A stretch of DNA of 64,000 bases from Amphibalanus amphitrite (Eukaryota; Arthropoda; Thecostraca; Balanomorpha; Balanidae). The stretch covers positions 434,001 to 498,000 of the forward strand of contig NW_024881965.1 of the NCBI RefSeq assembly GCF_019059575.1. Reading direction: 5' to 3'. The notes under the pieces were generated by a model that did not search any database, was not told the origin of the DNA, and saw only the letters and a program-made list of their open reading frames with translations. Shown piece after piece: positions 40,501-64,000 of the stretch (within the stretch, counting starts at the first letter, position 1; every line of letters starts with the position of its first letter). The position numbers and the translations under genes are program-made.

Positions 40501-43500
40501 TGATCACTGCCGAGCTCTTCTCACAAGGTGAGTTTGCCAACCTATGGGCTGTGGGCTGTGACACGGGCCAGGAGTTGGTGCGCCTTTGGTGCGCAGGCAC
40601 TGTCGAGCTGCTCTGTGTGGGGGTTGTGTGACAGGTATTGTGTGCGGCAAATGCTGGTTATTGCAGGTCAGGTATCGAATTCGAGACAACTCGGGTCCCG
40701 TAGGGATGTCCGTCTGATTTGTTTTCTATTAATTCTTGACTTACGAACACGGTCGTCACGAAGATTGATAATAGCTCGGTTCATGACTTTGTGGAATATT
40801 TGAAGTGATTCACCTTTGGACGCCTTTGAAGCGGCCTGACCAACATACCAAAGATAGCTGCCCCACGTCGCCAGCCTGTCCGCGGGATCAGCGCATCGGT
40901 CGTGAGGAATCAGCAAATCATTGTTACCGGGGCAACGGGCAGCCGTTACCTAGGCAACCGATTGTTAGGGCGAAACTAGCGCTTCCTTGTCACCAAAGGA
41001 TTAGTCAATTAATATTGACAGTAGACTCGACTGGAACGTCAGTTAAACTTGGCGGCTCCCAGGTCTGGGAAGTAGGTATTTCTGTCCCCGCAATGTCGGA
41101 AGTGCGCTTCAGTGCCCCGCGGCATCCTCTCCTCCCGAAAGAGCTGGCCACCGGCTGCTGACTCGATCCGATTGGGCACTCGATCCGTCCGTTCCCGCCC
41201 CGATTGTCCAGCCTGCCGCTGTGCCGGCTCGGCAGTCCCCTGTCCTGCCCTGTCAGCGGCCGAGGGCACCCCTACCCGGCGGGGGTCGCGTTACACCCCT
41301 GTCCGGCCCCCGGACACCGGCCAATGGGTCCGCTGCCGCCGGCGGTCCGAGGGTCCATGGTGTATTGATGTGCCGAGCTGCGCCATTAGCTGGGACACGT
41401 GCCGTCAGCATGCCGTGGTTTGGAGCCCGGGAGGTCGTGTGGTAGATAGCGGCCAAACATAGAGAGGTTTACTGCCTTGAGATGCCATTTGTGGTATACA
41501 GAGGTGAAGAATATCGCCTTTTTATCTTCATTATTGTATACATTTGTAATGTAAATTGAGATAAATTGTGCACCAAATGTTCTGAACATACGCTAATGTC
41601 CTGCATTCATTTTGGGCTTGCGTGTTGTTGTTTCTAATAACGATGAAATAATTGCAATTAAAGGCGAACGGACCCAATATCACTTATTAGTCCTGGCCGG
41701 GCTCTCCCTATCAGATACACAGTCGGCACATTTGATGTCCGTTTAACACTGAACAGGCCCCCAGTTGACACGTGTCGCGGTCATGATGTGTTATGTCACG
41801 TCTCGTCGTCATATGTCTGCTGACAGCCGTGTGTGGTGTGTTCGCTTTTAATTGGGCATGTTATTTGGTTCGCTTAATTAAAGACGGTTATTTGGCTCCC
41901 GGAGTTTGAAACGTGGTACGATAGTTAGACTGGATGGAATAAAGTTTTCGTAGTTTCCATTCATGTTTCTGCATCCTTAATGTTCTTTCGTGTGTGGCAT
42001 TCAGGACTCAAGTTAGTGCAGTTATGTGGAATGTGCTGTCGTAAACTGCGTCATAAGTATGCCGTTTTCCGTTTAAACCGTGATATTGTCTCGCCTGTAA
42101 CATGTAACATCACGACTGTAACACGTTGCTGACCGCGTGTCTCGTTCCGCAGGTCCGCGGCCGGCAGCGATGAGTATCGCAGTGCTGGTCAACTGGTTCT
42201 GTAACTTCATCGTCGGCATCGCCTTCCTCCCGATGAAGGTATGTCCGTCTACAGCACCCTCCAACCAGACCAGACATGCCATCCCGGTCAGCCGGAGAGT
42301 TCGTACACGACTCAGGACTGGTCAGGTGTATGTAGTCGTTGCAGTAAGGCACGGCGAACCAATAACGCCCGTAACGTAACCCTTCCTCACACACAGGCAT
42401 CATGTTTTATCATCATGTTTTATCATGTATTACCTACATATTACCTATGTAGGTAATAATCTACACTACCCCAGCAAAATAAATCTTGTGGTATCCTTGT
42501 ATTTCCATAAATCACCAACAGGCTTACGCCCAATTACAAGTGAAGTCAGACGCACACGCATACCTACATGCATAAATATCGCCCATCCCTCCACACACAC
42601 ACTTCTCCTTTGCATCCGGCAGAGGCCGACTCAATCACATAACGCACGCCAGGGTTGAGGCATTGGTGATACAACCGTCGAACCCGGTTTGTCATACAGA
42701 TCAGTCAACACAGTTCGACATAGATCAGTCTTTAATCAGGAGCCATCCGCACGCCGTCATTGTTTACGGTATGGTCAGGCCACTGGCCAATGCCATTTGT
42801 TACACGTCATCGGCAGTCTGACGGGATGAGTGTCCTATGTGGGGCGGAACCGGACAGCGAACACTGACCTTTGACCCGCGACGGTGTCCGAGGGTTCCGT
42901 GCAGGGTTGAGCTCAGGTGGTGACAGGGATCTTTGACTCGCGCCCGCTTCCCGGGAGTCCCGTGTCCATATGCATTAGGCGGTGAACAGGGGCCTTTGAC
43001 CCTTCCCCGCTGTCCGAGGGTCGGCTGAATGGGTTCCGGCGGTCGATAGTATCACCCCACCGGTCGGCGCCCATAGAACGCGACCCACCGGCCCACCACG
43101 CACTCACTCCCGTGACAAACGGCCTGGCATTGTTCCGGGCCCCGCTTGAGCGGCACTTTCCGCATCGCGAGGGTCGCCAGCACGGGCCATGTGCTCAATG
43201 CTGGACGGATGGCTGTCTAGGGGAGGCGACATTATCGTGTTGCTAGTGACGGAGTAACACGCCACGCGACGACGCTGTCAGGTCCTAGCTCGTAACTCAA
43301 ATCAAAGCAGACGTGCCGTGATGTACGGGCTCCTAGTGCTGATTATGTAAGCGGTCCTTAGTCGCTGTTTGACCCGTAGTCCGGCCGGTCGACCGTGTCC
43401 TCTTTATAGTCGGCTCACGGTGAGGTGAGCGGGCTCCGTGATCGCTCCGTTTCGTGACACCTATCCGTGACAATCACGGCGACTGCCGGTGCCAGGCTGT

Positions 43501-45776: not shown

Positions 45777-45939
45777 CCGCCCGTGTCTCTGCCCGCCCGC
45801 ACCGCCCACCGCTGCGGGCCCGCGTGTGTGTGTGTCTGTGTGTGCGTGTGTGGTGCCGCGCGCTGTGTGACGCTGTTTGCCGTGACGCGTCACGTCTCGG
45901 GCTGCGTGACGCGAGTGACCGTCACCCGGCCGGTTGCAG

Positions 45940-46072
45940 GCCGATCACCAACGGCTCCCAGCCGGCGGCGGCGGCGCGATTCGAGGCGCCGCCCCTGCTC
46001 GAGGCCCGCTACGTGCCGCCCTGTAAGGCACGCGCCACGCGCCCGGCGCAGGTGTATCGGTGTGCCCCGTAG
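45940..46072 (+). CDS. Glut1: Glut1 coding exon 13b, alternative C-terminal exon
   Basis: Acceptor CCGGTTGCAG, in the same phase as 13a, so exon 12 could splice to either. The frame reads RPITNGSQPAAAARFEAPP, then LLEARYVPP, then a basic tail to TAG at 46070-46072 (540-residue isoform). A GTAAGG donor at 46023-46028 inside it would instead leave in phase 1, which matches the open frame at 48273. Inferred from splice signals and phase. Confidence 0.6.
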
Positions 46073-48019
46073 AGCATGTGTGTGTGGTACGCGGAGGTCG
46101 GCCCCAGGGGCAGGCGGTTGGGGCAGGTCGGAGTGACACGGGTCAGAGCTAACCGGAACTCGAACGGTGGGAGTTCAGGCCGTCGAAAAATGGCCAGAGA
46201 TTCGACTTTGATCCGTCCTTTTTGCATGACTATAGTAAATTTCCAGGAGTTCTACAAGGATGGCATGACATTTGCAAATTTAGCCCAGCTAAACCAATAC
46301 TAGTTGTTACACAACAGACCTCGTGCCTTGTCACATGCCTCGTGGCATGGCCTGGTAACGACGCTTCAAAGCCAAAAAAAAAAAACTGTCGTTTCTGGTC
46401 GAGTCACTCTCGCTATGCCTCGTCATGGCCTCTGAAGTGGCAGTTCGTCCTCAGCCGAGGGCCACTGAGGTCACGGAATGCCACTCTCGAGAGGTTTGTA
46501 TCTCATAGCTGATAGCGCTCAGCCTATCATCCACTTAGTGCGTGGTCAGTAAACAGCACCCAGTCACTCTTATCTATATCGTCTGACTCTGATCAGAGAC
46601 AAAACAGCGGCGGATATTCGAACGATTATACAAGCATCAGCGCGGCATCGCCTGGCTCCGACCGTTAGCATTGACCTTCAGCCGGTGACCTGTGACCTGT
46701 GACCTCTGACCTGCCCCGGGGGTCTGCCACCCTCCTCAGCCGTGTCTGTATCCCCATCTACATCCAGCTTGCGTGCATGCTTGTTCCGACCATCCAGTAG
46801 ACGGCATGTGTCGCGATATTGGCATGCTGTAGCGGCGGGCGGCCCGGCGGCCCGGCCGACTCTGTTTATCCTGCTAATGATGGCCGATTTGGTTGTCGGC
46901 CCGGTATCGGTCCGCAGCGCGGTGTAATGTGGCCGTGACTAGCACGGTGGATGGAGTACTTATCGACTAGCGCACCGGGCCGTCAGGAGACCGGCCGCGG
47001 TACAAGACAGCACCGGGGGACTCCGGTGGGGCGGAGACTATGGTGCCCTGATCTTGGGGCGTCTGTATACTGCTACTTATCGGGGGAACGCCGCGTTGAT
47101 TAACGCGGATAGCGACTCTGGGACAGCTGTTGCGGATGATAACAGCTCATCTGGCCTTGATAGTGCAATGTGCCGCTGAGGACGTTTGCTCGTTCATATA
47201 TCGCTCGTTTTGCAACTGTGAATGTGGTGTATGTTGGATGCTGGATGGGTAGATAGCGTTCATTATCATCTGTCTCCGGACCCGGGATCGCGTCTCGTAG
47301 TTTTGTGTTGTTACTGAATGGCAATCTTCAACAGTATCCCCGAAAATCGTCAGTATGAGCGTGGATCGTCGCCTGTTCCCGCATGCCTAATGTTCACTCG
47401 ATTTGTGTTCGGTGGTCGCCTGTGCCTTCCGTGGTCCAGACATTGGATGTGATAGTGCGCCCACCCCATGTGCCAATGCTTCTGTAAGATACGGGGGCCG
47501 TATTTTTCTACATGTATCATGAAGAGGAGCATGTAATATAGATATGCCAGCTGTATTACGGATTATGTAATGTGTTATTCATTATGTAATGTCTGTGCAG
47601 CTTCATTGCAGCCTGGTTACGCTAGTGAAATGGTACCTAACTCAGATGACTTCAGAAAATATGTCTTATTCCGCTTCGAATCTTGGTAAGTAATCATGGC
47701 TTTTACATAACTGTTCGAAGGGAGTCGGCTCTTGGGTCTCGCTATGTGGGTCGCTAAGGTGATTAACAGACCCAGCTGTGTGACTGTTGCCTGGCTGGTA
47801 AGACACGCGTGCTGCCGATGCCCGTCGACCCAGCTGCTGTGCGGACTGGCACAAAGTCTTGACCCTCTCCCAACAGCAGCGAGAAGTCCCTGATGACGTC
47901 TCCCTAACCGTCCTTCCGAACACCACAGCTGCACCGTTTTTCTGTCTTTCCTCTCTCTGACATCGCAGTGAGCTGGCCAGTGTTCACAGCTGACCCGGTG
48001 TCGTCCTGCCGGCAGCAGC
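46073..48019 (+). other. Region between alternative Glut1 last exons
   Basis: Would be 3' UTR of the 13a/13b isoforms or intron of the exon 14 isoform. No gene recognised. I did not find a convincing AATAAA signal near the 45776 or 46072 stops. Confidence 0.6.
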
Positions 48020-48290
48020 GCGGGGTCTTGGGCCTGAGTTGGTCAGTTACAGCCGGAGGTCACACAGCTGACCTGTGCCCCCCCCCTGTGCCCCCCCCCC
48101 TCTACAGCAGCTCGGGAGGTAGGGCCTTAGCTGGTCAGTTACAGTGATGTCACACGGCTGACCTGCGCCCCCCCCCCCCCCCTGTAGCAGCTCGGGAGGT
48201 CGCGCCCCAGCTGGTCAGTTACAGTGGAAGGTGACACAGCTGAACTCTGCCCCCCCCCCCCCCCCTCTACAGCAGCTCGGGAGGTCGCGC
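48020..48290 (+). repeat. Three to four units of about 70-90 bp carrying the exon 14 acceptor
   Basis: Units with AGCTGGTCAGTTACAG, GACCTGYGC, a long C run, then CTACAGCAGCTCGGGAGGT at about 48105, 48185 and 48270, with a partial first unit near 48015. Only the last stays open in the candidate exon 14 frame. Confidence 0.85.
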
Positions 48291-48427
48291 CTGAGCTGGT
48301 CAGCCTGCACCCGTCGCTGGAGCGGCCGGCCGGCTGCGCGGCGGCGCCCAGCCCACTCGGGCCGCGCCTGGTCGACCGGCGCAGTCACCACCACCTGGAG
48401 CCGCTGGCGGCCGAGCTGAGCACGTGA
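48273..48427 (+). CDS. Glut1: Candidate Glut1 exon 14, third alternative C-terminus
   Basis: Acceptor after CTCTACAG with a NAGNAG twin (start 48273 or 48276); both enter in the phase left by the 46022 donor. The frame reads SAREVAPELVSLHPSLERP and ends HHHLEPLAAELST at TGA 48425-48427. Joined to exons 1-12 and the short form of 13b, it totals 1728 nt, an exact multiple of three (575 residues). GC-rich and proline/arginine-rich. No transcript evidence can be had here, so this could be a lucky open frame. Confidence 0.45.
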
Positions 48428-48676
48428 CGCCTGGGGCCGGGCCGCGCGCCCTGTCCGCCACCGCGCGCGCCGGCCTGGCTCACCGACAGGTCACTGGACA
48501 CAGAGCCGTACCGGCTCAGCACGCAGGGTGGCCCGGCGCGTGACGACGCAGCGCCGGCGGTGGAGGCCGCAGCCCCGTCAGACGACCTGGCGCGCTGGGT
48601 AGGACGGTCCGGGGCAGGCGCCGCCTTCTGGGAAAGCTCAGAGAGGGAACTGGCTACAGAGCACGGACACCTGTGA
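48428..48676 (+). CDS. Open extension after the exon 14 stop (possible readthrough or separate last exon)
   Basis: After the TGA at 48425-48427 the same frame stays open for 82 codons to TGA 48674-48676. It reads protein-like sequence such as SLDTEPYRLSTQGG and FWESSERELATEHGHL. The first stop is TGA followed by C, the leaky context known from arthropod readthrough genes. Alternatively, the AG at about 48490 (CTCACCGACAG) could act as an acceptor; its phase would fit the exon 12 donor. See the findings. Confidence 0.3.
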   Translation, partial: RLGPGRAPCPPPRAPAWLTDRSLDTEPYRLSTQGGPARDDAAPAVEAAAPSDDLARWVGRSGAGAAFWESSERELATEHGHL

Positions 48677-51600
48677 TCTCCGGAGGCTCAGTCGGACGCG
48701 TTGCGAGCACCTGAGCGGAAGTGGCGGCATTGGCAGCCCAGCTGTGATGGCGCGTGTGCCGCGCGACAATGACACGAACACGTGAAACCGAGCTCTCACC
48801 TGCCAAGTGTGGTTCGATGCGTTTGCTGTTGAATTAGGTAGTGATTTTCATTCAGTACTCAAATTGTATCAATTGTTGAACTTGTATTTCTATTTTATCT
48901 GAATGCAAAATATGACGCGAGTGGTGCTAGCCATGAAGAGTGTTGATTCTCATTCCAGTTTCTGAAGTCGGAGCGGCTCGTAAATGTTCGATAATGTTCA
49001 GACCGAGCCTGTTACTGAGCGCAGTGGCCGTGGTGGCGGCGTTGAAGGATCGGCGTGCGGCCGGCGCCGCACTGCTCTCGATAATCAGAAGATAATGAAG
49101 CTCAATATTTGTAGCTCCTGTAGTGTGCTGTGCGTTACGCGGCGCTGGCAGGTAGGGGGCCGGTGTGGGTCGATCGGACAGACGGGAGCGGAGTACTGTC
49201 GGTCCAGTCTGCTCAGTGGTATTCTGTCATCGGGCGGTGCGGAATACTGTCCAGTTAAATGGACATCCGCAGAGAAATGCAGCTCGACAGACGTGGTGTG
49301 GTTGGTCAGTGCGTCATTTTTCAATTCACAGGATGACAGGATTTCCTTACTCTTATTTCGGCGATTCTCGGGATCCTCGGGCTCATCGTTCGGCCTGCCG
49401 CGCGTCCCGGGGCCGCCGGTCGCGGCTGTCTGTCCGCAACTGGCGGGTTTGTTGCTGCAGCACTTCACTGCCCAGTTCCGCAGCGCCGGTTTCATACTCC
49501 GCCGCGGTCTCTGTGCGAGTTGAGTTTGTGAGTTGAGCGAGCGCGAGTCGCCGTGAGCCGGCGTGCGGCGGGCCCGGCCTGCCCTGGCCGCCCGATCCAA
49601 CGATACGCTTACCGTTGTTGCGTTGGAGGGTGGCGTGCGGTGTGTGCTTCGGTCGCCCTTCTGCCAACCTTGGGATAGTCATGTCGACTGTCCGTGGACT
49701 GTCAGGTGCTATGTGGAAATGTGCTAGAGCTGAGGCCTCTTGCACCAAACTACCTAGCTAGGTAAAATCGAAAAACCGGTTTCAGAATAAGCTAATCTAA
49801 CGGTGGTAAATTTGTTTGCAATAGCCCAATACATGATCCTACATGTGCTTGCAAAATTTTGCATGCAAATTGTTACATTTGAGACTTGGACTGGGTATAC
49901 GATGCAAAATAATCCAAGCATTGGTGCAAGAGGATTTTGGTGCAAGAGGCCTCAGATGAGTGGAGTGTCAAGTGTATATTTCAGTCTCGTGATGTGACTG
50001 TGCGGGTGTGATCGTGAGTGTGGTCCGTGATCTCTGAGGTCTGCCGTATGCCGGGACCGGAGCTACCCGTTCCGGCACGTGCCACCCGGCCGCCCACTCA
50101 CTGCCCGGCCCGCGCACAGCGGCGCTCCACCGTCCGCTGGGGGTAGCTCTGGCCCGGCCAGGAGCCGACCACTGACAAAACAGCGTGAGGAGGTGATGTC
50201 TGTGTGTTCTATGGAGAACTGGGTGGATAAGAGCCAACTGGGATCAAATCAAACCCACCGCTCAAAACGAACAGACTGCATCACCACGCTGGTATATTAA
50301 CACACATCGTTTGTCATGACACACATGCGGTCCCAGTCGTCTAACGGACCAGAGATTCCACGCGAGTGACGGTCACACAGTGTAAGGAGACCGCCGACCG
50401 GCCGACCGGCGGTCAGTCATCACGGTAGTCACACGGCACGGAGCCGCAGGCACGGCACGGCACGATATCAGAGGTGCGCCGCGCCGCTCACCACGTGTCA
50501 CTGCATATAAAACATCTGGTACTCACGGCACGGCACGGCACACGTGATGTGCCGGGAGGAGACTGGTCACTGAGGACCGTGGGTCAAATCGGCAACAGCA
50601 TTCCACGCTAGTACGTCCTCTGGTGTGAAAGGTGCAACTACGCTGAATATTTCAGTACAAACCAGAGCATGCTCAGTTGACCTGACTTGAGCCGGTAGTG
50701 GTGCTCACACAAGGCATGTTGTTGTAATATTTTGCGAAAAAATAGCACCTCAGCATAATACCATAATTGATCGCAGTCCATGCGATGTGCTTGAACAATG
50801 TCGCCAACTTGAAACATCGATGTCTGAATACTGTCGGTTGAACACTCGATGAACACTTCAACCTCTAAGTGAAATGTGCCTTACGTCATGAAACTGGTGC
50901 TTGATAACTAAGCAGCTCTATGAATGGACACTCCATGAACTAAATAGGATGTTTAAACTAAGCAAAACACTGAACAGAACAAACATATGTCGGCTTCCAT
51001 TGCCAGTTAATACCGCCTTGCCGCATGGAGTGATTAGCAGCCACATGTTAGTAACAACTCGGCTCCTCTCTCCCTCCCCGGTACCGTTCATTTCTAAAAC
51101 CTCGAGGGTAACACATCCGCAACCCAAATCCCATACACATATCAGTCATAAGTCCTCCGCTATAACATAATAACTTAACAAGTGAAGCTCAAATACTCCG
51201 CGAAATGTGCGACCATCACCCTGCCGAACCAAGCCACCACCCCAACCTAACCCTCCCTCCCCACGGGCGCCTGGCGGCCTCCAGAGCTCCCCAGACCGAC
51301 ACGGGGCCTGCCCCGGCGGTAGCCGTCCACTCCCCGGAGAGACCAGGCTGCGATGTACAAAAATTAACGCAGTCCTACTCTCTCATGAAGTGAGATAACT
51401 CTATGGCTCAGTGATGTGTAAGTAACCATCGATACTCGATCCCATCTGAGGCTGCGGTCCCACAACGGGAGGACCCATCACGACAGGCAGTGTCGGCGGC
51501 CTTCCCACCACCGTCTGCCAGTGTCACACACGCGACACACGGTATCGTCCCGTCCATACTTCACGGCACCGTCCACACGACGGTCCCATCTCCGATCGCT

Positions 51601-51706
51601 GAGGCAGAGTCGGACAGGCGCCCGGCCGCCCGGCCTGAATGTATCACAGAAGGACGAGCTGCAGCGAGCTCACATGAAGTCCTGGCCGCCGACCGGCGGG
51701 CCCAGT
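48677..51706. other. Gap between convergent Glut1 and mannosidase genes
   Basis: 3 kb holding both 3' UTRs. Apart from the MITE at 49730-49955 and GGCAC repeats near 50430-50540, nothing identifiable. The 49000-49600 open frames on both strands are GC-driven. Confidence 0.65.
49730..49955. mobile_element. 226-bp MITE with CTGAGGCCTCTTGCACCAAA ends
   Basis: Exact inverted 20-bp ends at 49730-49749 and 49936-49955, AT-rich inside. The right end also has a tandem copy of TTTGGTGCAAGAGG. No coding. Confidence 0.8.
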
Positions 51707-52003
51707 TCAGATGTAGTCGTGTCCGGCGCCCCCGGCCACCGGCGGCGCGGCGGCCAGCGGTGCGCGCGGCGGCGGCGCCGGAGGCCGGCGCAGTACCGGC
51801 AGCGGGTGCGCCTCCGTGTTGAACACGTAGTCGTTGAGGTTCAGAGTGCTCTGATCGTCGGAGAAGAGCAGGTACAGGTACTTGAGCGTCTCGCCGAGGA
51901 AGAACGACTCCATGGAGTCGCGCGGGTTGAGATTGTCCGGGTTACGCACGTCCCCGATACTCGTGTAGCCGCCCGTCGGCACACGAGCGTACTTCTCAAA
52001 CGC
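51707..52003 (-). CDS. MAN1B1: MAN1B1-like last coding exon
   Basis: Acceptor CCTGTCCCGCAG on the minus strand, 98 codons plus TGA (51707-51709). Begins [19 protein letters not shown]; carries [20 protein letters not shown] and [10 protein letters not shown], the GH47 C-terminal motifs with the calcium-ligand Thr. The tail after PLPVL is low-complexity Ala/Pro ending GAGHDYI, where human MAN1B1 stops after about four residues. Confidence 0.95.
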
Positions 52004-55000
52004 CTGCGGGACAGGGGGACGGTCAGAGGCTGGGACTGGGTCACTGGACATCGGCAGGGAGATTGGAGAAGGAGAGTGTCTCTCGGTCTCGGCAATCAAC
52101 AGTCATAACTTAGCGGGAGAAAGTGCTTCTCAATGAAATGTGCAACGGAGGCAATAACGAGAGAACGAAAAACAAAGAATGCTTTTAAAGGAACTTCCTC
52201 AGCATCCAGTATGGTAGGGTTGAGGGATCGGGAATAGCTCACAAGCTCACCTGGAAAATGTTCCACCCCCAGTCCTGGTAGATGTATCATCTCACCTGGA
52301 AAATATTCCACCCCCAGTCCTGGTAGATGTATCATCTCACCTGGAAAATGTTCCAGCCCCAGTCCTGGTAGGTGCGGTTGCCGGTCAGGTGGTACAGGTA
52401 CCACAGCGACTCCACCGTCTCCGGCCGCAGCAGGCTGTGCGCGTCCAGCGGCTTCACGTAGAAGTCGGTCGTAGAGTCCGGCTGTGGTATAACGGGACGA
52501 GGTCAGCGAGGGAGAGGAGCTGAACAGAGAGAGGTCAGCACGAGACCGGCTGAGCAGACAGGGTGGGGAGAGAGGATGGAGGTCAGCGCTAGGAACAGGG
52601 AGGTCGGGTGGGACAAGGTTGGAATAAAAGGTAAAGATTCAGCCGAGACCTCGACATAGGAAAAAAACAAACAGTACGGGAGAAGTATAAAGACAGGGAG
52701 CAGTCTAAAGACAAGGGTTACAGCCACCGTGGAGCTGAGTCGGTAATGGCTGAAGTGGGCTCCAAGGATCAATGTCTTATCGTTTCGGTACCTCAGCACC
52801 TGACACGGGGTTATCCGCGGTCGGGCCAACGGGTTCGAGACACTTCAGAGCTCCGACAACAGCCGTGTCGTTGGGTGGAAGCTATTTACCCTAAAGGTGA
52901 ATCAAAGATAAAGATAAAGGTCCTTCAAACAATCGCCATCGAAAACTGCGTCAACTACACACTGAATATTGTGTAGGTAATGAACAATCTCAGCTGGTGT
53001 TATATGAGTGTTTGGAGCACGTCCACCGTGAAGTGACCTCAGTCCACACTCAGAACTTCCGCGCCGAGAACAAAACTCCGGTGAAGTAAGCGCAAGTAAA
53101 TAAACAGTGCGCGACACGAGGGGGTATCGGAAAGTTCTGATCATCGCCATGAGCTAGATATGAAAGAAAGTTAATTTTTTACGTGATGTTCATTAGGTAC
53201 TTCTCCACAAGTCACCACACAAGACTACGATTTTTTCCATCGTTTCTTGAGCTGCCTCAGGCCGCCATAGTAGAACCCTTCCCACTTCCCGGTAAATCAC
53301 TGCTCCACCTCATTAATGACGTCATTTCTGTCATTAAATCACCGGTCGTACTGTGGATTATTTGCCTCCTGTAACAATCCAGAGTCACTTAATACCCGGT
53401 CAGATGAATTTGTTAGACGCAGTAGGATTTAATGCCCACATCATGCTATTTCTTCAATCTCAGCTCAGGTCGAATGAGCGCGGGGCGTGTCGGCGGGGAG
53501 AAAGACATCCTATCGGCCTTTTGGCAGCGATTCCGCTGGGAGACATCTCGCAACCCCTTCAAAAGTGTGCTTAGTACGTGCTAATTATTATCCGACCCTC
53601 ATCAATTCAGTCGGTAATGACTACCTCAGGCCAGACCCAGAACACTGACTACATTGACCTTCCATATGGGTTTCTGTATCGTCACCTTTAGAAGGGCAGA
53701 TGTGCTGTGCTTCAACTTCTTGATTATTTCTTTTGCCTCTGCATCAAATACGTACACGCAACATTCGTCAAGGTCACCAAACGATCGAAGATACCTTCAA
53801 TTTTCTAAAAAGGTGCCCCAAGCCGGCGAGGGTTAAACAAAGTCAACACATGAGCTCCTAGGGAGGTTGACACCTTTATCGTGCGTAACAGGCACTGCTA
53901 ACATTAAGACCATTCTGATGCATGATCATTTGGAAGGTCACACGACGATCTGCAAGGATGAGGTCCTCCACTTCCTTCACAATCACCACCTTGTCAGTCT
54001 TTGGTAGTCACCCGGTTCTTGACTCCCCTGCAAGAGCCATGCAATTTGAAAAAAATATTTTGCATTTTACGGTAAGTGCATAAGATTTTTTTTCGCCATA
54101 AGCTACTTTCACTTTCCTAATGCATTTTCTCAGTGTAATACCCTTTTAATGCATTAGTTGGATGACGGTTCGGTCCTCAATGGGCCGAACTCATTGCGCA
54201 TCTTTTTTATTTCGAAGTCTTTCCGACATAAGATAAAACTGCTTTTCAGGATTTTTTTTTTCTGCATGAGCATTGTTCTTAAGGACCAAATACAACACCA
54301 ACAAAAAATGATTGAAATTTAATATAACTTCTGTGTGATGATCAGAACTTTTCGGTACCCCCTCGTACAAGGTCACGCTACACCTTTCTAGCATCTGCAA
54401 AACCGTACAGTATCCAGCTCCACCATCCGGCACTGGAATAGGGCGCGCTAGTCTCTGGTGCCACCCTGACCCACGATCCCAGCGGCAGCGCCCATCCCGG
54501 CCACGTTCATGTTGAAGTAGGTTATCTCTGGCGCCACCCCGGTCCCTGATCCCCGAGCTCAGCCCCCACCGCGACTCACGTTCATGTTGAAGTAGGTGAT
54601 CTCTGGCGCCAGTCCGGTCCCTGACCCACGATCCCAGCCCCACCGCGACTCACGTTCATGTTGAAGTAGGTGATCTCTGGCGCCACCCCGGTCCCTAATC
54701 CCCGATCCCAGCCCCACCGCGACTCACGTTCATGTTGAAGTAGGTGATCTCTGGCGCCAGTCCGGTGGCCTGACGGCTGTAGGTGAGGTAGCACGTGTAC
54801 ATCAGCTCCTCGGCCAGCTTCATGTAGGACGGCGGCAGGCCCAGTCGCACGCTCAGCGCCAGCGTGCCCGGCAGAAAACAGGCCAGGTGGTCCTGGTGGA
54901 TGTCCGTGAAGTTAGCGTCAGCAACAGCAACGAATACAGCGTCGGATTCAGAATCGCTTAAAGAACTCATTTTAGGGCAATTGGGGGACGGGGAGCAAGA

Positions 55001-58000
55001 ATATGACCTTTATTTGGCCTTACTTATTTGGCCTCTTACCCCTTACCCCTTAATCGGCCCTTAAAGGAAGGGGCGCGTCAAAAGTGCCTCAAGGGTTCGT
55101 CTGATCGCCAAAATAAGGGTCGCAATCGATTCCCCGGGTCAATATCTAGCCGCAGCCTCGGGTTCCAGATGTGTGCAACTTACCCCTTACCCCTTAATCG
55201 GCCCTTAAAGGAAGGGGCGCGTCAAAAGTGCCTCAAGGGTTCGTCTGATCGCCAAAATAAGGGTCGCAATCGATTCCCCGGGTCAATATCTAGCCGCAGC
55301 CTCGGGTTCCAGATGTGTGCAACTTATCCCTTACCCCTTAATCGGCCCTTAAAGGAAGGGGCGCGTCAAAAGTGCCTCAAGGGTTCGACTGATCGCCAAA
55401 ATAAGGGTCGCAATCGATTCCCCGGGTCAATATCTAGCCGCAGCCTCGGGTTCCAGATGTGTGCAACTTACCCCTTACCCCTTAATCGGCCCTTAAAGGA
55501 AGGGGCGCGTCAAAAGTGCCTCAAGGGTTCGTCTGATCGCCAAAATAAGGGTCGCAATCGATTCCTCGGGTCAATATCTAGCCGCAGTCTCGGGTTCCAG
55601 ATGTGTGCAACTTACCCCTTACCCCTTAATCGGCCCTTAAAGGAAGGGGCGCGTCAAAAGTGCCTCAAGGGTTCGTCTGATCGCCAAAATAAGGGTCGCA
55701 ATCGATTCCCCGGGTCAATATCTAGCCGCAGCCTCGGGTTCCAGATGTGTGCAACTTACCCCTTACCCCTTAATCGGCCCTTAAAGGAAGGGGCGCGTCA
55801 AAAGTGCCTCAAGGGTTCGTCTGATCGCCAAAATAAGGGTCGCAATCGATTCCCCGGGTCAATATCTAGCCGCAGCCTCGGGTTCCAGATGTGTGCAACT
55901 TACCCCTTACCCCTTAATCGGCCCTTAAAGGAAGGGGCGCGTCAAAAGTGCCTCAAGGGTTCGTCTGATCTCCAAAATAACGGTCGCAATCGATTCCCCG
56001 GGTCAATATCTAGCCGCAGCCTCGGGTTCCAGATGTGTCCAACTTACCCCTTACCCCTTAATCGGCCCTTAAAGGAAGGGGCGCGTCAAAAGTGCCTCAA
56101 GGGTTCGTCTGATCGCCAAAATAAGGGTCGCAATCGATTCCCCGGGTCAATATCTAGCCGCAGCCTCGGGTTCCAGATGTGTGCAACTTACCCCTTACCC
56201 CTTAATCGGCCCTTAAAGGAAGGGGCGCGTCAAAAGTGCCTCAAGGGTTCGTCTGATCTCCAAAATAACGGTCGCAATCGATTCCCCGGGTCAATATCTA
56301 GCCGCAGCCTCGGGTTCCAGATGTGTCCAACTTACCCCTTACCCCTTAATCGGCCCTTAAAGGAAGGGGCGCGTCAAAAGTGCCTCAAGGGTTCGTCTGA
56401 TCGCCAAAATAAGGGTCGCAATCGATTCCCCGGGTCAATATCTAGCCGCAGCCTCGGGTTCCAGATGTGTGCAACTTACCCCTTACCCCTTAATCGGCCC
56501 TTAAAGGAAGGGGCGCGTCAAAAGTGTCTCAAGGGTTCGTCTGATCGCCAAAATAAGGGTCGCAATCGATTCCTCGGGTCAATATCTAAACGCAGCCTCG
56601 GGTTCCAGATGTGTGCAACTTACCCCTTACCCCTTAATCGGCCCTTAAAGGAAGGGGCGCGTCAAAAGTGCCTCAAGGGTTCGTCTGATCGCCAAAATAA
56701 GGGTCGCAATCGATTCCCCGGGTCAATATCTAGCCGCAGCCTCGGGTTCCAGATGTGTGCAACTTACCCCTTACCCCTTAATCGGCCCTTAAAGGAAGGG
56801 GCGCGTCAAAAGTGTCTCAAGGGTTCGTCTGATCGCCAAAATAAGGGTCGCAATCGATTCCTCGGGTCAATATCTAGCCGCAGCCTCGGGTTCCAGATGT
56901 GTGCAACTTACCCCTTACCCCTTAATCGGCCCTTAAAGGAAGGGGCGCGTCAAAAGTGCCTCAAGGGTTCGTCTGATCGCCAAAATAAGGGTCGCAATCG
57001 ATTCCCCGGGTCAATATCTAGCCGCAGCCTCGGGTTCGAGATGTGTGCAACTTACCCCTTACCCCTTAATCGGCCCTTAAAGGAAGGGGCGCGTTAAAAG
57101 TGCCTCAAGGGTTCGTCTGATCGCCAAAATAAGGGTCGCAATCGATTCCCCGGGTCAATATCTAGCCGCAGCCTCGGGTTCCAGATGTGTGCAACTTACC
57201 CCTTACCCCTTAATCGGCCCTTAACCCTCGCCCATGTAGGGGGCGGTTGGTGCAACCCCCCCCCCCCCTGAGGTTTTCGGAAATAGTGCAAAAACGGCGG
57301 CGCGCAGCGCCGCCAAATTTTGGGTACCTTATGGGGCAAACCTTGCGCATCTTTTGATAAAAAAATTTGACCGGGTCATGTCAGGTCACGGAGTTATGAC
57401 GTCACAAAGGGAACAGCCTCCGGCCGGATTTTCACAAACTGAGTGCCAACGCCCGAGGTTTCCTGCCGGTGGTACGGACATCGGTTGATGGATCGTGATG
57501 AAACTTCCCATGCATGTTGGGGCAAGTAGGTATTGGCTATCATATGGTATAAGAAACTTGACCGGGTCAGGTCAGGTCACGGAGCTATGACGTCACAAGA
57601 GGAACAGCGTCCGGTACTATTTTTGAAAAGCGCCCGAACCACTATTTTGCTAATTCTTGTCACCTCAATGGTAATATGCAGCAATATTAGCTTCTATAGG
57701 GAGCAAATGGACCTTCCAAATCCAAAAATACAATCAGATTTCAAAAATTTAAATTTTGATTTTTCGAATTTCTGCCGCCGACTGTGACCTTGCCGACTTC
57801 CGGCGCTCCCAACGCGCCATTTTTAGAGCTAGGGAAACGAAATACATACCAAACGATAGAGAATTGATCAAGGAACACGATAGTGAAGGTTTCAAGTCGA
57901 TATCTCCAACCGTTTTGCCGCAATCGCCGCGGAAAGTTGAAAAAAGTCTATTTTTCCGAAAATTTGACCTTTGACCGGTCAAAAGTAGGTCAAATGTTGA

Positions 58001-61000
58001 CCTAGGACCAAAAACTATACCACCAATCGCGAGATCTCGGCGAGAGCAATCCGTTGGTCTTTTCCGCTAAGCTCTACGACGCTCCGTTTTCAAACGCCAA
58101 GGGGGGGGGGTCGCACCAACCCCCCCCCCCCTGCATGGGCGAAGGTGGCAGATCGCCGTTTACGGGCGAGGGTTAAAGGAAGGGGCGCGTCAAAAGTGCC
58201 TCAAGGGTTCGTCTGATCGCCAAAATAAGGGTCGCAATCGATTCCCCGGGTCAATATCTAGCCGCAGCCTCGGGTTCCAGATGTGTGCAACTTACCCCTT
58301 ACCCCTTAATCGGCCCTTAAAGGAAGGGGCGCGTCAAAAGTGCCTCAAGGGTTCGTCTGATCGCCAAAATAAGGGTCGCAATCGATTCCCCGGGTCAATA
58401 TCTAGCCGCAGCCTCGGGTTCCAGATGTGTGCAACTTACCCCTTACCCCTTAATCGGCCCTTAAAGGAAGGGGCGCGTTAAAAGTGCCTCAAGGGTTCGT
58501 CTGATCGCCAAAATAAGGGTCGCAATCGATTCCCCGGGTCAATATCTAGCCGCAGCCTCGGGTTCCAGATGTGTGCAACTTACCCCTTACCCCTTAATCG
58601 GCCCTTAAAGGAAGGGGCGCGTCAAAAGTGCCTCAAGGGTTCGTCTGATCGCCAAAATAAGGGTCGCAATCGATTCCCCGGGTCAATATCTAGCCGCAGC
58701 CTCGGGTTCCAGATGTGTGCAACTTACCCCTTACCCCTTAATCGGCCCTTAAAGGAAGGGGCGCGTCAAAAGTGCCTCAAGGGTTCGTCTGATCGCCAAA
58801 ATAAGGGTCGCAATCGATTCCCCGGGTCAATATCTAGCCGCAGCCTCGGGTTCCAGATGTGTGCAACTTACCCCTTACCCCTTAATCGGCCCTTAAAGGA
58901 AGGGGCGCGTCAAAAGTGCCTCAAGGTTTCGTCTGATCGCCAAAATAAGGGTCGCAATCGATTCCCCGGGTCAATATCTAGCCGCAGCCTCGGGTTCCAG
59001 ATGTGTGCAACTTACCCCTTACCCCTTAATCGGCCCTTAAAGGAAGGGAAGCGTCAAAAGTGCCTCAAGGGTTCGTCTGATCGCCAAAATAAGGGTCGCA
59101 ATCGATTCCTCGGGTCAATATCTAGCCGCAGTCTCGGGTTCCAGATGTGTGCAACTTACCCCTTACCCCTTAATCGGCCCTTAAAGGAAGGGGCGCGTCA
59201 AAAGTGCCTCAAGGGTTCGTCTGATCGCCAAAATAAGGGTCGCAATCGATTCCCCGGGTCAATATCTAGCCGCAGCCTCGGGTTCCAGATGTGTGCAACT
59301 TACCCCTTACCCCTTAATCGGCCCTTAAAGGAAGGGGCGCGTCAAAAGTGCCTCAAGGGTTCGTCTGATCGCCAAAATAAGGGTCGCAATCGATTCCCCG
59401 GGTCAATATCTAGCCGCAGCCTCGGGTTCCAGATGTGTGCAACTTACCCCTTACCCCTTAATCGGCCCTTAAAGGAAGGGGCGCGTCAAAAGTGCCTCAA
59501 GGGTTCGTCTGATCGCCAAAATAAGGGTCGCAATCGATTCCCCGGGTCAATATCTAGCCGCAGCCTCGGGTTCCAGATGTGTGCAACTTACCCCTTACCC
59601 CTTAATCGGCCCTTAAAGGAAGGGGCGCGTCAAAAGTGCCTCAAGGGTTCGTCTGATCGCCAAAATAAGGGTCGCAATCGATTCCCCGGGTCAATATCTA
59701 GCCGCAGCCTCGGGTTCCAGATGTGTGCAACTTACCCCTTACCCCTTAATCGGCCCTTAAAGGAAGGGGCGCGTTAAAAGTGCCTCAAGGTTTCGTCTGA
59801 TCGCCAAAATAAGGGTCGCAATCGATTCCCCGGGTCAATATCTAGCCGCAGCCTCGGGTTCCAGATGTGTGCAACTTACCCCTTACCCCTTAATCGGCCC
59901 TTAAAGGAAGGGGCGCGTTAAAAGTGCCTCAAGGGTTCGTCTGATCGCCAAAATAAGGGTCGCAATCGATTCCCCGGGTCAATATCTAGCCGCAGCCTTG
60001 GGTTCCAGATGTGTGCAACTTACCCCTTACCCCTTAATCGGCCCTTAAAGGAAGGGGCGCGTCAAAAGTGCCTCAAGGGTTCGTCTGAGCGCCAAAATAA
60101 GGGTCGCATTCGATTCCCCGGGTCAATATCTAGCCGCAGTCTCGGGTTCCAGATGTGTGCAACTTACCCCTTACCCCTTAATCGGCCCTTAAAGGAAGGG
60201 GCGCGTCAAAAGTGCCTCAAGGGTTCGTCTGATCGCCAAAATAAGGGTCGCAATCGATTCCCCGGGTCAATATCTAGCCGCAGCCTCGGGTTCCAGATGT
60301 GTGCAACTTACCCCTTACCCCTTAATCGGCCCTTAAAGGAAGGGGCGCGTCAAAAGTGCCTCAAGGGTTCGTCTGATCGCCAAAATAAGGGTCGCAATCG
60401 ATTCCCCGGGTCAATATCTAGCCGCAGCCTCGGGTTCCAGATGTGTGCAACTTACCCCTTACCCCTTAATCGGCCCTTAAAGGAAGGGGCGCGTCAAAAG
60501 TGTCTCAAGGGTTCGTCTGATCGCCAAAATAAGGGTCGCAATCGATTCCTCGGGTCAATATCTAAACGCAGCCTCGGGTTCCAGATGTGTGCAACTTACC
60601 CCTTACCCCTTAATCGGCCCTTAAAGGAAGGGGCGCGTCAAAAGTGCCTCAAGGGTTCGTCTGATCGCCAAAATAAGGGTCGCAATCGATTCCCCGGGTC
60701 AATATCTAGCCGCAGCCTCGGGTTCCAGATGTGTGCAACTTACCCCTTACCCCTTAATCGGCCCTTAAAGGAAGGGGCGCGTCAAAAGTGTCTCAAGGGT
60801 TCGTCTGATCGCCAAAATAAGGGTCGCAATCGATTCCTCGGGTCAATATCTAGCCGCAGCCTCGGGTTCCAGATGTGTGCAACTTACCCCTTACCCCTTA
60901 ATCGGCCCTTAAAGGAAGGGGCGCGTCAAAAGTGCCTCAATTCGATTGCGACCCTTATTTTGGCGATCAGACGAACCCTTGAGGCACTTTTGACGCGCCC

Positions 61001-64000
61001 CTTCCTTTAAGGGCCGATTAAGGGGTAAGGGGTAAGTTGCACACATCTGGAACCCGAGGCTGCGGCTAGATATTGACCCGGGGAATCGATTGCGACCCTT
61101 ATTTTGGCGATCAGACGAACCCTTGAGGCACTTTTGACGCGCCCCTTCCTTTAAGGGCCGATTAAGGGGTAAGGGGTAAGAGCTAGGGCCAAATAAAGGT
61201 CATATTCTTGCTCCCCGTCCCCCAATTGCCCTAAAATGAGTTCTTTAAGCGATTCTGAATCCGACGCTGTATTCGTTGCTGTTGCTGACGCTAACTTCAT
61301 GGACATTCCTGGTGGCGGGTATAAAACACAGTCACGCACTCGTGCTAAATTGTTTCGGCTCACCGAAACAGTCATGTGCTTGTTCGAAAAAAAGAACCTG
61401 AATATGGTGAAGCTACAAAGCGAGCGGTTGAAGAACATTTCAAACTGTTCGACTGCATACGAAAGTCAGTAAAACACTTCGAAATGCATGAATTCTACGC
61501 CATTTGAAACGATGTCAATTACCAGCGATTATTTATAGACTACATTGTTTTGCATTTTAGTAGAACATTGAATTTGTAACGTTTCAGATACCGAACCGCC
61601 CACCATTCAAACGCACCATTTTCGGTTTAATGTTCTTGCCGCCGCTCATCAGCTCTGCCAGGAAGGTCAGATCGCCCGGCTTGCTCTTCTTGACTAGGAG
61701 GTGCTGAATGCCCTGCACCGAGGCGTTAAAATCATTCCGGAGACTGCGGAAAGTGGAACGGCGTCAGTCACACAACGTCAGATAAATATGGAGTTATTGA
61801 ACTGACAGAGGTTTGCCAGTGTTTGTTTCAATGAGCTTCACCATCACAAAGCAATAATCAACAAGCCGTCGTGAAAGCATTGGCTCTCAGAATAAATAAA
61901 ATACCTGAGATGCACACTGCACAGGGTCCTTGCTACACTCGCTTTATCCAGCTCAGCACTATTCCTCTTTTCAGTCATCCCTCTCTCGCTCCCCATCAGT
62001 AAAAGGTAGGGATCCCGACTCACTGAGCCAGCGGCAGTCCCAGCTGGGCGTACTGTTTGATCAGGTACTCGTAGTAGCTGTCTCCCCTCCCCCCCCCCCC
62101 CTACTCACTGGGCCAGCGGCAGTCTCAGCTGGGCGTACTGTTTGATCAGGTACTCGTAGTAGCTGTCTCCCCTCCCCTCCCCCACTCACTGGGCCAGCGG
62201 CAGTCCCAGCTGGGCGTACTGTTTGATCAGGTACTCGTAGTAGCTGTCCCCCCTCCCCTCCCCCTCCCCTACTCACTGGGCCAGCGGCAGTCCCAGCTGG
62301 GCGTACTGTTTGATCAGGTACTCGTAGTAGCTGTCTCCCCTCCCTCCCCCTACTCACTGGGCCAGCGGCAGTCCCAGCTGGGCGTACTGTTTGATCAGGT
62401 ACTCGTAGTAGCTGTCTCCCCTCCCTCCCCCTACTCACTGGGCCAGCGGCAGTCCCAGCTGGGCGTACTGTTTGATCAGGTACTCGTAGTAGCTGTCCCC
62501 CTCTCCCCCCCTCCCACTCACTGGGCCAGCGGCAGTCCCAGCTGGGCGTACTGTTTGATCAGGTACTCGTAGTAGCTGTCCCCCTCCCCCTCCCCGTCCC
62601 CCACTCACTGGGCCAGCGGCAGTCCCAGCTGGGCGTACTGTTTGATCAGGTACTCGTAGTAGCTGTCGCCGCTCCCCTCCCCACTCACTGGGCCAGCGGC
62701 AGTCCCAGCTGGGCGTACTGTTTGATCAGGTACTCGTAGTAGCTGTCCCCCTCCCCTCCCCTCCCCACTCACTGAGCCAGCGGCAGTCCCAGCTGGGCGT
62801 ACTGTTTGATCAGGTACTCGTAGTAGCTGTCTCCCCCTCCCCTCCCCTCCCCCACTCACTGGGCCAGCGGCAGTCCCAGCTGGGCGTACTGTTTGATCAG
62901 GTACTCGTAGTAGCTGTCTCCCCTCCCCCCCCCCCTACTCACTGGGCCAGCGGCAGTCCCAGCTGGGCGTACTGTTTGATCAGGTACTCGTAGTAGCTGT
63001 CTCCCTCCCCTCCCCCACTCACTGGGCCAGCGGCAGTCCCAGCTGGGCGTACTGTTTGATCAGGTACTCGTAGTAGCTGTCTCCCTTCCCCTTCCCCTCC
63101 CCCACTCACTGGGCCAGCGGCAGACCGAGCTGGGCGTACTGTTTGATCAGGTACTCGTAGTAGCTGTCCCCTCCCCCCCTCCCCTCCCCCACTCACTGGG
63201 CCAGCGGCAGTCCCAGCTGGGCGTACTGTTTGATCAGGTACTCGTAGTAGCTGTCTCCCTCCCCCCCCCCCCACTCACTAGGCCAGCGGCAGTCCCAGCT
63301 GGGCGTACTGTTTGATCAGGTACTCGTAGTAGCTGTCCCCCCTCCTCCTCCCCCACTCACTGGGCCAGCGGCAGTCCCAGCTGGGCGTACTGTTTGATCA
63401 GGTACTCGTAGTAGCTGTCCCCCTCCCCCTCCCCCTCCCCCACTCACTGAGCCAGCGGCAGTCCCAGCTGGGCGTACTGTTTGATCAGGTACTCGTAGTA
63501 GCTGTCTCCCTCCCCTCCCCCACTCACTGAGCCAGCGGCAGTCCGAGCTGGGCGTACTGTTTGATCAGGTACTCGTAGTAGCTGTCCCCTCCCCCTCACT
63601 CCCCTCCCCCACTCACTGGGCCAGCGGCAGTCCGAGCTGGGCGTACTGTTTGATCAGGTACTCGTAGTAGCTGTCCCCCTTCCCCTCCCCTCCCCACTCA
63701 CTGGGCCAGCGGCAGTCCCAGCTGGGCGTACTGTTTGATCAGGTACTCGTAGTAGCTGTCCCCCTCCCCCCCTCCCCACTCACTGGGCCAGCGGCAGTCC
63801 CAGCTGGGCGTACTGTTTGATCAGGTACTCGTAGTAGCTGTCCCCTCCCCCTCACTCCCCACCCCACTCACTGGGCCAGCGGCAGTCCGAGCTGGGCGTA
63901 CTGTTTGATCAGGTACTCGTAGTAGCTGTCCCCCTCCCCCTCCCCCTCCCCCACTCACTGAGCCAGCGGCAGTCCCAGCTGGGCGTACTGTTTGATCAGG
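51707..64000 (-). CDS. MAN1B1: ER mannosyl-oligosaccharide 1,2-alpha-mannosidase, GH47 (3' part of gene)
   Basis: Class I alpha-mannosidase that removes alpha-1,2-linked mannose from Man9GlcNAc2 in the ER, for glycan maturation and ERAD timing. Exons in gene order: an exon 3' end encoding [19 protein letters not shown] (somewhere in the array at 62019-64000 or beyond), then 61617-61743, 54728-54892, 52341-52481 and 51707-52003. Phases match at every junction. The protein follows human MAN1B1 closely: [70 protein letters not shown] and [17 protein letters not shown] holds the conserved catalytic-site Arg and Glu, and FNTEAHP holds the calcium-binding Thr. The sequence favours the ER enzyme over Golgi MAN1A. 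The C-terminus has an extra Ala/Pro-rich tail of about 28 residues. The N-terminal half lies past the right edge. Intron 54893-61616 contains a foldback transposon. Confidence 0.93.
52246..52371 (-). repeat. Three 45-bp tandem copies of the NIFQ exon end and donor
   Basis: Exact 45-bp period: donor-side CTCAC (plus strand) at 52246, 52291 and 52336. Each unit carries [10 protein letters not shown] coding sequence plus GTGAG and ten intron bases. The rightmost copy is the real exon end. Reading through the first donor meets TGA in frame. Confidence 0.92.
52341..52481 (-). CDS. MAN1B1: MAN1B1-like coding exon PDSTTDF...NIFQ
   Basis: Acceptor TTATACCACAG, donor GTGAGA, 141 nt, phase 0 to phase 0. 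Encodes [19 protein letters not shown] (catalytic Arg/Glu motif) and [10 protein letters not shown]. The last 30 nt plus donor are tandemly repeated in the following intron. Confidence 0.95.
52482..54448 (-). other. Mannosidase intron without recognised features
   Basis: About 2 kb of unique sequence between two mannosidase exons. A short GGCGAGGGTTAA end fragment (about 53826) marks a truncated TTAA-type element. Confidence 0.65.
54449..54760 (-). repeat. Tandem copies of the YFNMN exon end and donor
   Basis: A unit of about 74 bp holds GAGATCACCTACTTCAACAT-type exon 3' sequence plus GTGAGTC and some 40 bp of intron. The functional donor is at 54722-54727. Copies lie at about 54647 and 54573 with intact donors, and at about 54498 with a decayed donor (GTGGCC). 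A partial fifth copy starts near 54449. Confidence 0.9.
54728..54892 (-). CDS. MAN1B1: MAN1B1-like coding exon DHLACFL...YFNMN
   Basis: 165 nt, 55 codons, phase 0. Acceptor CCACCAG lies in the target duplication of the foldback element; donor GTGAGT. Encodes [24 protein letters not shown] and [12 protein letters not shown], matching the human [13 protein letters not shown] and GLSPEIVHFN segments. Confidence 0.95.
55028..60946 (+). repeat. 144-bp satellite array (interrupted at 57225-58172)
   Basis: Direct units from about 55028 to 57224 (about 15) and 58173 to 60946 (about 19), each containing TTACCCCTTACCCCTTAATC and CAATCGATTCCCCGGGTCAA. The period is exactly 144 bp, so one frame stays open for long stretches (48 residues per unit, [16 protein letters not shown]...). 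These open frames follow from the repeat and are not treated as genes. Variant units (CCTCGGG for CCCCGGG; TCTAAAC for TCTAGCC; TCTCCAAAATAACGG) recur in blocks, showing higher-order duplication. Confidence 0.95.
57225..58172 (+). mobile_element. TTAA-flanked piggyBac-like MITE, family A, copy 3
   Basis: Starts CCCTCGCCCATG and ends CGGGCGAGGG, with TTAA on both sides (57221-57224 and 58173-58176). The surrounding satellite unit has one TTAA at this spot (CGGCCCTTAAAGG), so the empty site is known from the neighbouring units. 948 bp, no transposase. CCC...GGG ends with TTAA duplication point to the piggyBac superfamily. Nearly identical to 1-844 and to the inverse of 29163-30100. Confidence 0.88.
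60947..61188 (-). repeat. Inverted satellite units, right arm of the foldback element
   Basis: At about 60940-60950 the direct array breaks in mid-unit and continues as its reverse complement for about 1.6 units, ending GGGGTAAGGGGTAAG before the unique terminal segment. This gives the element its fold-back structure. Confidence 0.92.
61316..61616 (-). other. Remaining original part of the mannosidase intron
   Basis: Unique 300-bp intron sequence between the donor GTGCGT (61611-61616) and the foldback element. Removing the element and one target copy restores an intron of about 310 bp ending TATACCCGCCACCAG. Confidence 0.75.
61617..61743 (-). CDS. MAN1B1: MAN1B1-like coding exon LRNDFNA...NIKPKM
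   Basis: Acceptor CACTTTCCGCAG, donor GTGCGT, 127 nt. Enters with one base, completing CA|T (His) from the upstream exon, and leaves in phase 0. Encodes [20 protein letters not shown] and [18 protein letters not shown], matching the human segment that ends LTFVGEL...AKM before DHL. Confidence 0.92.
62019..64000 (-). repeat. 24-copy tandem array of a mannosidase exon 3' end plus its 5' splice site
   Basis: Copies start at about 62019, 62103, 62184, 62271, 62352, 62433, 62516, 62603, 62683, 62767, 62854, 62937, 63017, 63104, 63191, 63273, 63355, 63442, 63522, 63611, 63696, 63778, 63866 and 63953 (cut by the window end). Units are 79-89 bp. Each holds 59 nt of coding sequence (19 codons, [19 protein letters not shown], plus CA), the donor GTGAGT, and a C/T-rich spacer (G/A-rich on the coding strand) of variable length. 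The coding part is almost invariant; the spacer varies. No unit has a pyrimidine tract before its coding part, so copies are unlikely to be internal exons. The copy with the real exon start is probably right of the window. Confidence 0.95.

Follow-up and report, generated by a model that had tools for sequence, protein, structure and literature searches.

A foldback transposon of 6,407 bp (54900-61306, delimited by a script on the window sequence) lies in a barnacle ER alpha-1,2-mannosidase I gene, and the 9-bp target into which it was inserted is the very end of an intron together with the first two bases of the following exon. The window, i.e. the whole stretch of DNA analysed, comprises 64,000 nt (C468:434001-498000) of an assembly of 807.55 Mb in 2,644 contigs, whose mitochondrial COX1 fragment looks like that of an arthropod and probably of a crustacean. 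Duplication of the target left a copy of the splice acceptor on each side of the element, the reading frame of the joined exons is intact, and the element terminus carries branch-like motifs at the spacing found in the other introns of the gene. Rescue of the acceptor by duplication, as read from this anatomy, is well supported; that the rescued acceptor works with an element-borne branch-like site and that the whole element is spliced out is considered probable. The use of the distal acceptor copy, the one next to the exon, and its efficiency are what we infer from the sequence.

Insertion, target duplication and host gene

Within the window, TCCTGGTGG has exactly two occurrences, both in plus orientation (54891-54899 and 61307-61315), and the minus strand has none; each copy adjoins an inverted end of the element (ATGTCC...). 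The two ends are identical over their first 120 nt except for base 7, at 61300. This is certainly an insertion with target duplication, beyond chance. The mannosidase gene lies on the minus strand, with one exon ending in ...KNIKPKM (61617-61743, followed by the donor GTGCGT at 61616-61611) and the next, assigned by sequence match, ending in ...YFNMN (54728-54892); 61617 is the last exon base before the insertion and 54892 the first one after it. The duplicated 9 bp therefore correspond to the intron end plus two exon bases, CCACCAG|GA. In the left copy the acceptor AG (54894-54893) adjoins the exon, and in the right, gene-upstream copy the AG is found at 61310-61309. The initial annotation had proposed these exon edges, a target made up of the acceptor AG and the first two exon bases, and an acceptor copy on each side of the insertion; the exact repeats and the joined coding sequence, ungapped through KM|DHL, bear it out.

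Within the element a 144-bp unit is repeated in tandem on the plus strand, 15.2 times at 55035-57224 and 19.2 times at 58173-60940, and two inverted units on the minus strand (60942-61182) provide 241 nt that are 100% complementary to 55033-55273. The array is lopsided in this copy, with 35 units in one orientation and 2 in the opposite one (37 in total). A 948-bp element with CCCTCGCCC...GGGCGAGGG ends and TTAA flanks, presumably piggyBac-like to judge by these ends, is found at 57225-58172; with its TTAA (57221-58176) it is nested in an array whose unit itself contains TTAA. The family terminus is open both ways (54900-55010, by eye), with reading frames running inward and outward. A plasmid collection searched with the element end yielded no match, and none of seven other open reading frames of the window matched Pfam.

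Eight minus-strand exons, located in the window and the next 9 kb, join into one open coding sequence of 479 aa. Residues 3-452 align to human ERManI (1fo2) with an E value of 2.1e-172, compared with 3.1e-101 for Golgi mannosidase IA (1nxc), human ERManI being the closer of the two, and the alignment to human ERManI is ungapped at the insertion junction (...KPKM|DHLACF...). Two of the three exon frames tried scored above the cut-off for Pfam PF01532 and the third below it, at 13.0 bits. On these matches the gene qualifies as an ER alpha-1,2-mannosidase I with a full GH47 domain.

The intron is older than the element, since 301 nt of it (61316-61616, minus strand, up to the upstream acceptor copy) are still present upstream with a donor and an acceptor of their own. 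Its likely native branch site is GTGAC at 61331-61335 (minus strand), whose A precedes the first exon base of the upstream copy by 24 nt. The intron measured 308 nt before the insertion and measures 6,724 nt now, or 9,458 nt on C121, a second contig that carries the locus. The idea that a shared position in GH47 paralogs proves the intron to be ancient was tested and discarded: in both paralogs checked (C787 and C620) the exon extends seven codons past KM (DHLACFI) before it breaks, at a donor that is GT in C620 and GC in C787. Tandem duplications over exon-donor boundaries are found at three places in the gene, so that three of its introns start with repeated 5' splice sites. From 62014 to 64000 and onward to about 67698, an exon end and its donor are repeated head to tail in units of approximately 85 bp across about 5.7 kb; the other two duplications have a 74-bp unit in 3.7 copies (54502-54774) and a 45-bp unit in 2.8 copies (52246-52371).

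The two acceptor copies

In the proposed course of events, a non-autonomous-looking foldback transposon would have inserted into the mannosidase gene through a staggered 9-bp cut that spanned the last 7 bases of the existing 308-nt intron and the first 2 exon bases. Because repair duplicated these 9 bp, the exon would have retained CCACCAG|GA, and the native branch site and tract would have been left beyond the element, on its far side from the exon. The element terminus would have brought CTGACGCTAAC close to the exon, placing candidate branch adenines at distances of 26 and 20 nt, and the element would now form the 3' portion of an intron of 6.7 kb (9.5 kb on C121) that starts at the host donor (61616) and ends with the distal AG (54893). 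Splicing to this AG is predicted to restore an unchanged protein, and a fraction of transcripts would probably be joined instead to the upstream copy of the acceptor or to decoys within the array.

Only the distal copy keeps the protein, restoring KPKM-DHLACF; use of the upstream copy gives KPKMECP followed by a stop. The sequence before the distal acceptor reads CTGACGCTAACTTCACGGACAT-CCACCAG, i.e. element end and duplicated target, and includes CTGAC (54917-54921, minus strand), with its A 26 nt before the exon, and CTAAC (54911-54915, minus strand), with its A 20 nt before it. The latter had already been pointed out as a branch-like contribution of the element end, and it stands, accompanied by the former. 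All seven other acceptors read in the gene show T(G/A)AC with the A 20-28 nt before the exon. In the background, taken from positions 1-45000 of the window on both strands, TRAC is found at 18-35 nt from 330 of 2,375 YAGs (13.9%) and CTRAC from 77 (3.2%). The reading of CTGAC and CTAAC as branch-point-like motifs, at the spacing of the other introns of this gene, is supported by these comparisons. The acceptors were also scored with a home-made model that combines position scores from the seven other acceptors of the gene with hand-set branch weights; it is a weak model, drawn from 7 introns only and giving negative position scores to two true acceptors. Among the 366 AGs between donor and exon, it ranked the distal AG first and the upstream copy 49th. 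The distal AG scored 13.9, above six of the seven native acceptors (4.0 to 19.8 when scored leave-one-out), and the upstream copy 7.2, above two of the seven.

The principal alternative is that the upstream copy is used, in which case the transcript would enter the element, stop after three codons and be degraded, and the locus would represent a loss-of-function or weak allele. This outcome is unlikely, and the initial annotation rightly singled it out for checking. The native context of the upstream copy is intact, including the A of GTGAC at 24 nt and 14 pyrimidines in the 20 bases before CAG, versus 12 of 20 for the distal copy. Scanning from the native branch site would moreover reach its AG before any other, and the element, read on the gene strand, contains 33 GTAAGT motifs (52 in the C121 copy), compared with 1.6 (2.2) expected from base composition. 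Their frequency is close to one per array unit, forming a row of decoy donors that could define pseudo-exons. The model ranks given above speak against use of the upstream copy, as does a private base at 61300: 79 of the 80 distinct family ends retrieved read G at this point (ATGTCCGTGAAG), and the end found here reads A (ATGTCCATGAAG), on both contigs. Located at a CpG, the substitution abolishes a GT 8 nt downstream of the upstream acceptor copy, and with it the family-end GTGAAG, a potential donor behind that acceptor. Furthermore, both assembled copies of the locus contain the insert, and yet the frame is intact and the splice sites of all eight exons are kept on both contigs. GH47 matches occur on 11 contigs of the assembly. 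When the C-terminal 209 aa of the enzyme served as protein query, C468 and C121 matched at 95-99% identity and C1224, C84 and C787 at only 33-67%. With C468 and C121 as the sole close matches, this search revealed no additional, uninterrupted copy of the gene. The DNA of the right flank likewise has two matches, both with the insert, hence no empty allele is present in the assembly.

On C121 this insertion is also present, flanked by identical 9-bp copies, in an element of 9,141 bp and 56 units versus 6,407 bp and 37 units on C468; the C121 copy shows a gap close in size to the nested 948-bp element. Between the two contigs there is one mismatch and 12 gap positions over 48001-54899 and no difference over 61307-62010, whereas identity is 85-97% over 45001-48000 and 67701-73140, and 40001-45000 has no match within the C121 stretch compared. 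A near-identical block of about 14 kb (48000-62010) thus surrounds the insertion, outside which the contigs differ by approximately 3-15%. We take C468 and C121 for two haplotypes, in which case the insert occupies a block of recent common origin, unless the assembly made use of one haplotype twice. Between the contigs 16 codons differ (15 synonymous, 1 non-synonymous), all of them in the four upstream exons. The 15:1 ratio was considered as purifying selection proving function after the insertion and was rejected, since these codons lie outside the near-identical block and speak for constraint on the gene generally, not after the insertion.

The foldback family and the introner question

Family members were collected from the whole assembly with the first 33 bases of the element, allowing up to 3 mismatches, and the same pattern read backwards served as control. 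The search yielded 420 family ends, 216 on one strand and 204 on the other, corresponding to about 210 copies, and the reversed pattern none. Copy lengths range from 0.5 to 18 kb among the members examined, and opposed arrays are present in all seven other copies mapped at full length, two of which are one duplicated insertion on C16. Insertion sites were examined at 50 distinct places (28 plus 22, the C16 pair counted once), 30 of them with both flanks and 20 with one flank. An exact 9-bp duplication was found at 29 of the 30 sites with both ends, the one on C107 differing by one base. Together, the arrays, the inverted ends and the constant 9-bp duplication identify a family of foldback DNA transposons. 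Base frequencies over the 50 targets gave no strong consensus, and a target preference for splice sites was rejected on these grounds. On C111 (796780-796845) two family ends abut with zero bases between the termini. On C16 one insertion is present twice in opposite orientation (1592843-1597618 and 1931221-1935996), which represents an inverted duplication or an assembly fault.

Elements of the Mutator superfamily (MULEs) duplicate 9-11 bp of target. The 9-bp duplication fits this range, a feature not specific to MULEs, and from its length a MULE-type transposase is likely for the family. The MULE domain PF10551 gave 111 matches among 150 scored of 204 candidates; visual comparison with the listed ends, which make up about a quarter of the 420, placed none of these matches inside an element. 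Among the same ends, neither a transposase carrying the family ends nor an autonomous partner was found.

How often a family of this size would strike an acceptor was estimated from the 8 positions per intron that put both bases of the acceptor AG inside a 9-bp target. With stand-in values of about 160,000 introns in 770 Mb, derived from barnacle gene and exon counts in part of a published account (PMC8917513), the probability is approximately 0.17% per insertion, which for 210 copies gives an expectation of about 0.35 hits. The chance of at least one hit is near 29% with the same stand-in intron numbers. The survey agrees with this expectation, so that landing on the acceptor needs no targeting and is no more than chance would provide. 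In the survey, flanks were scored for coding-like segments on a scale where the exons of the mannosidase gene reach 26-84 and random 600-mers have a median of 9.1 and a 95% point of 30.5. One of the 50 sites, that in the mannosidase gene, touches a segment that scores like the exons of this gene; among the other 49, a sample of about 209 further copies, 20 of which sites were seen from one side only, none does. At four sites, weak segments close to the junction scored 8.2-10.5, at the random level, and were excluded from the count.

The initial annotation had also held that the element is pre-adapted to splice at its edge, as proposed for introners, and had suggested a survey of other copies for positions at intron ends. 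Its account of a foldback element on a 3' splice site, with acceptor copies and branch-like spacing, is upheld by the present analysis; the pre-adapted introner is not. According to that explanation, the ends of the family would be selected as splice sites and insertions near exons would be routinely spliced out, which is highly improbable. Each end does carry the branch-like CTGACGCTAAC outward and a weak donor-like GTGAAG inward (ATGTCC|GTGAAG), and two other copies lie 99 bp (C103) and 114 bp (C142) upstream of coding-like segments. The branch-like motif was present in the terminus of all 80 distinct ends, retrieved by a search with up to 4 mismatches that itself selects for the motif, and transposase binding would account for its conservation just as well. 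Against an introner family stand the 49 other sites that do not touch exon-like segments, the targets devoid of a strong consensus, an element edge that contributes no acceptor AG, this being derived from the target, and copies of 0.5 to 18 kb. No new intron was created here either, as the older 301-nt intron with its donor and acceptor shows, the 5' splice site is that of the host, and 1 of 50 sites touches an exon, far from many copies acting as introns; the assignment to an introner family was rejected accordingly. A related idea is that the family terminus is a portable half-acceptor, with two suitably spaced branch-like sites and an inward-facing donor-like GTGAAG, that would turn any AG-holding target into a working acceptor, and that the G-to-A change at 61300, by which the element lost its own donor next to the competing upstream acceptor, was kept for better splicing. 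This is very unlikely; if true, it would open a route by which ordinary foldback transposons become intron ends.

Two further explanations are barely credible: that the terminus of the element provides an alternative first exon, with an outward ATG in frame with the mannosidase exon, for which the frame is open through the junction although an in-frame join has a chance of one in three and the shortened product would lack the first half of the catalytic domain; and that the insertion, or the place assigned to it, results from a mis-join, which the near-identity of the contigs over 48-62 kb against about 3-15% difference outside would allow if one haplotype was used twice, but which the exact duplication, the family-wide structure and the two array lengths (37 and 56 units) contradict.

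Significance and comparison with known systems

Rescue of the acceptor by target duplication, the preferred reading, would provide a clean natural case in which a duplication that is usually a scar preserves a splice acceptor, with a transposon end offering branch-like sites at the spacing of the gene itself. The competing acceptors are identical, one in its native context and the other in a transposon-derived context, and since both copies of the locus carry the element, which is multi-copy and kilobases in length, their competition can be read directly from RNA. The case is relevant to how genes come to tolerate DNA transposons and to what may be an initial step in the direction of introners. 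A literature search, mostly of titles and the openings of abstracts, found no foldback insertion with a duplicated acceptor, a precedent in print being possible, and no paper joining introners and foldback elements. The case is best regarded as a neat accident and not as a new class of element.

The FB elements of Drosophila are foldback elements. Others include Tetris of D. virilis, with target duplications of 8-10 bp according to part of the published description (PMC4079207), and Tm1 of Meloidogyne, whose duplications are mostly 9 bp with no clear consensus in the portion of the report considered (PMC3169594). As far as these accounts go, the barnacle family shares with both the long inverted ends, tandem repeats variable in number and a similar duplication length. 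It is set apart from them by its 144-bp unit and by an insertion that covers a splice acceptor, and the likeness is one of structure and duplication length.

In older work on Ds and Ds1 insertions, splice sites were supplied by the transposon. Maize Ds1 provides three donors and two acceptors of its own and generates an 8-bp target duplication, as stated in the part of the source drawn upon (PMC5432752). To that extent, the barnacle case resembles Ds/Ds1 in that a transposon terminus supplies splice signals and a duplication arises at insertion; unlike in Ds1, the AG resides in the duplicated target and the element provides just a branch-like motif.

Among introners, the element of Chrysochromulina brings its 5' splice site and co-opts the 3' site, and in Florenciella both are co-opted, in the section of the study considered (PMC9860276). 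On this partial account the likeness is that the target duplication provides the 3' splice site and the other signals come from element or host. Unlike introners, the barnacle element replaced the 3' end of an existing intron, leaves the 5' site to the host, is kilobases long and has its other surveyed sites away from exons. By analogy, the comparison with introners would hold for the mode of working, in which the AG is derived from the target, rather than for membership.
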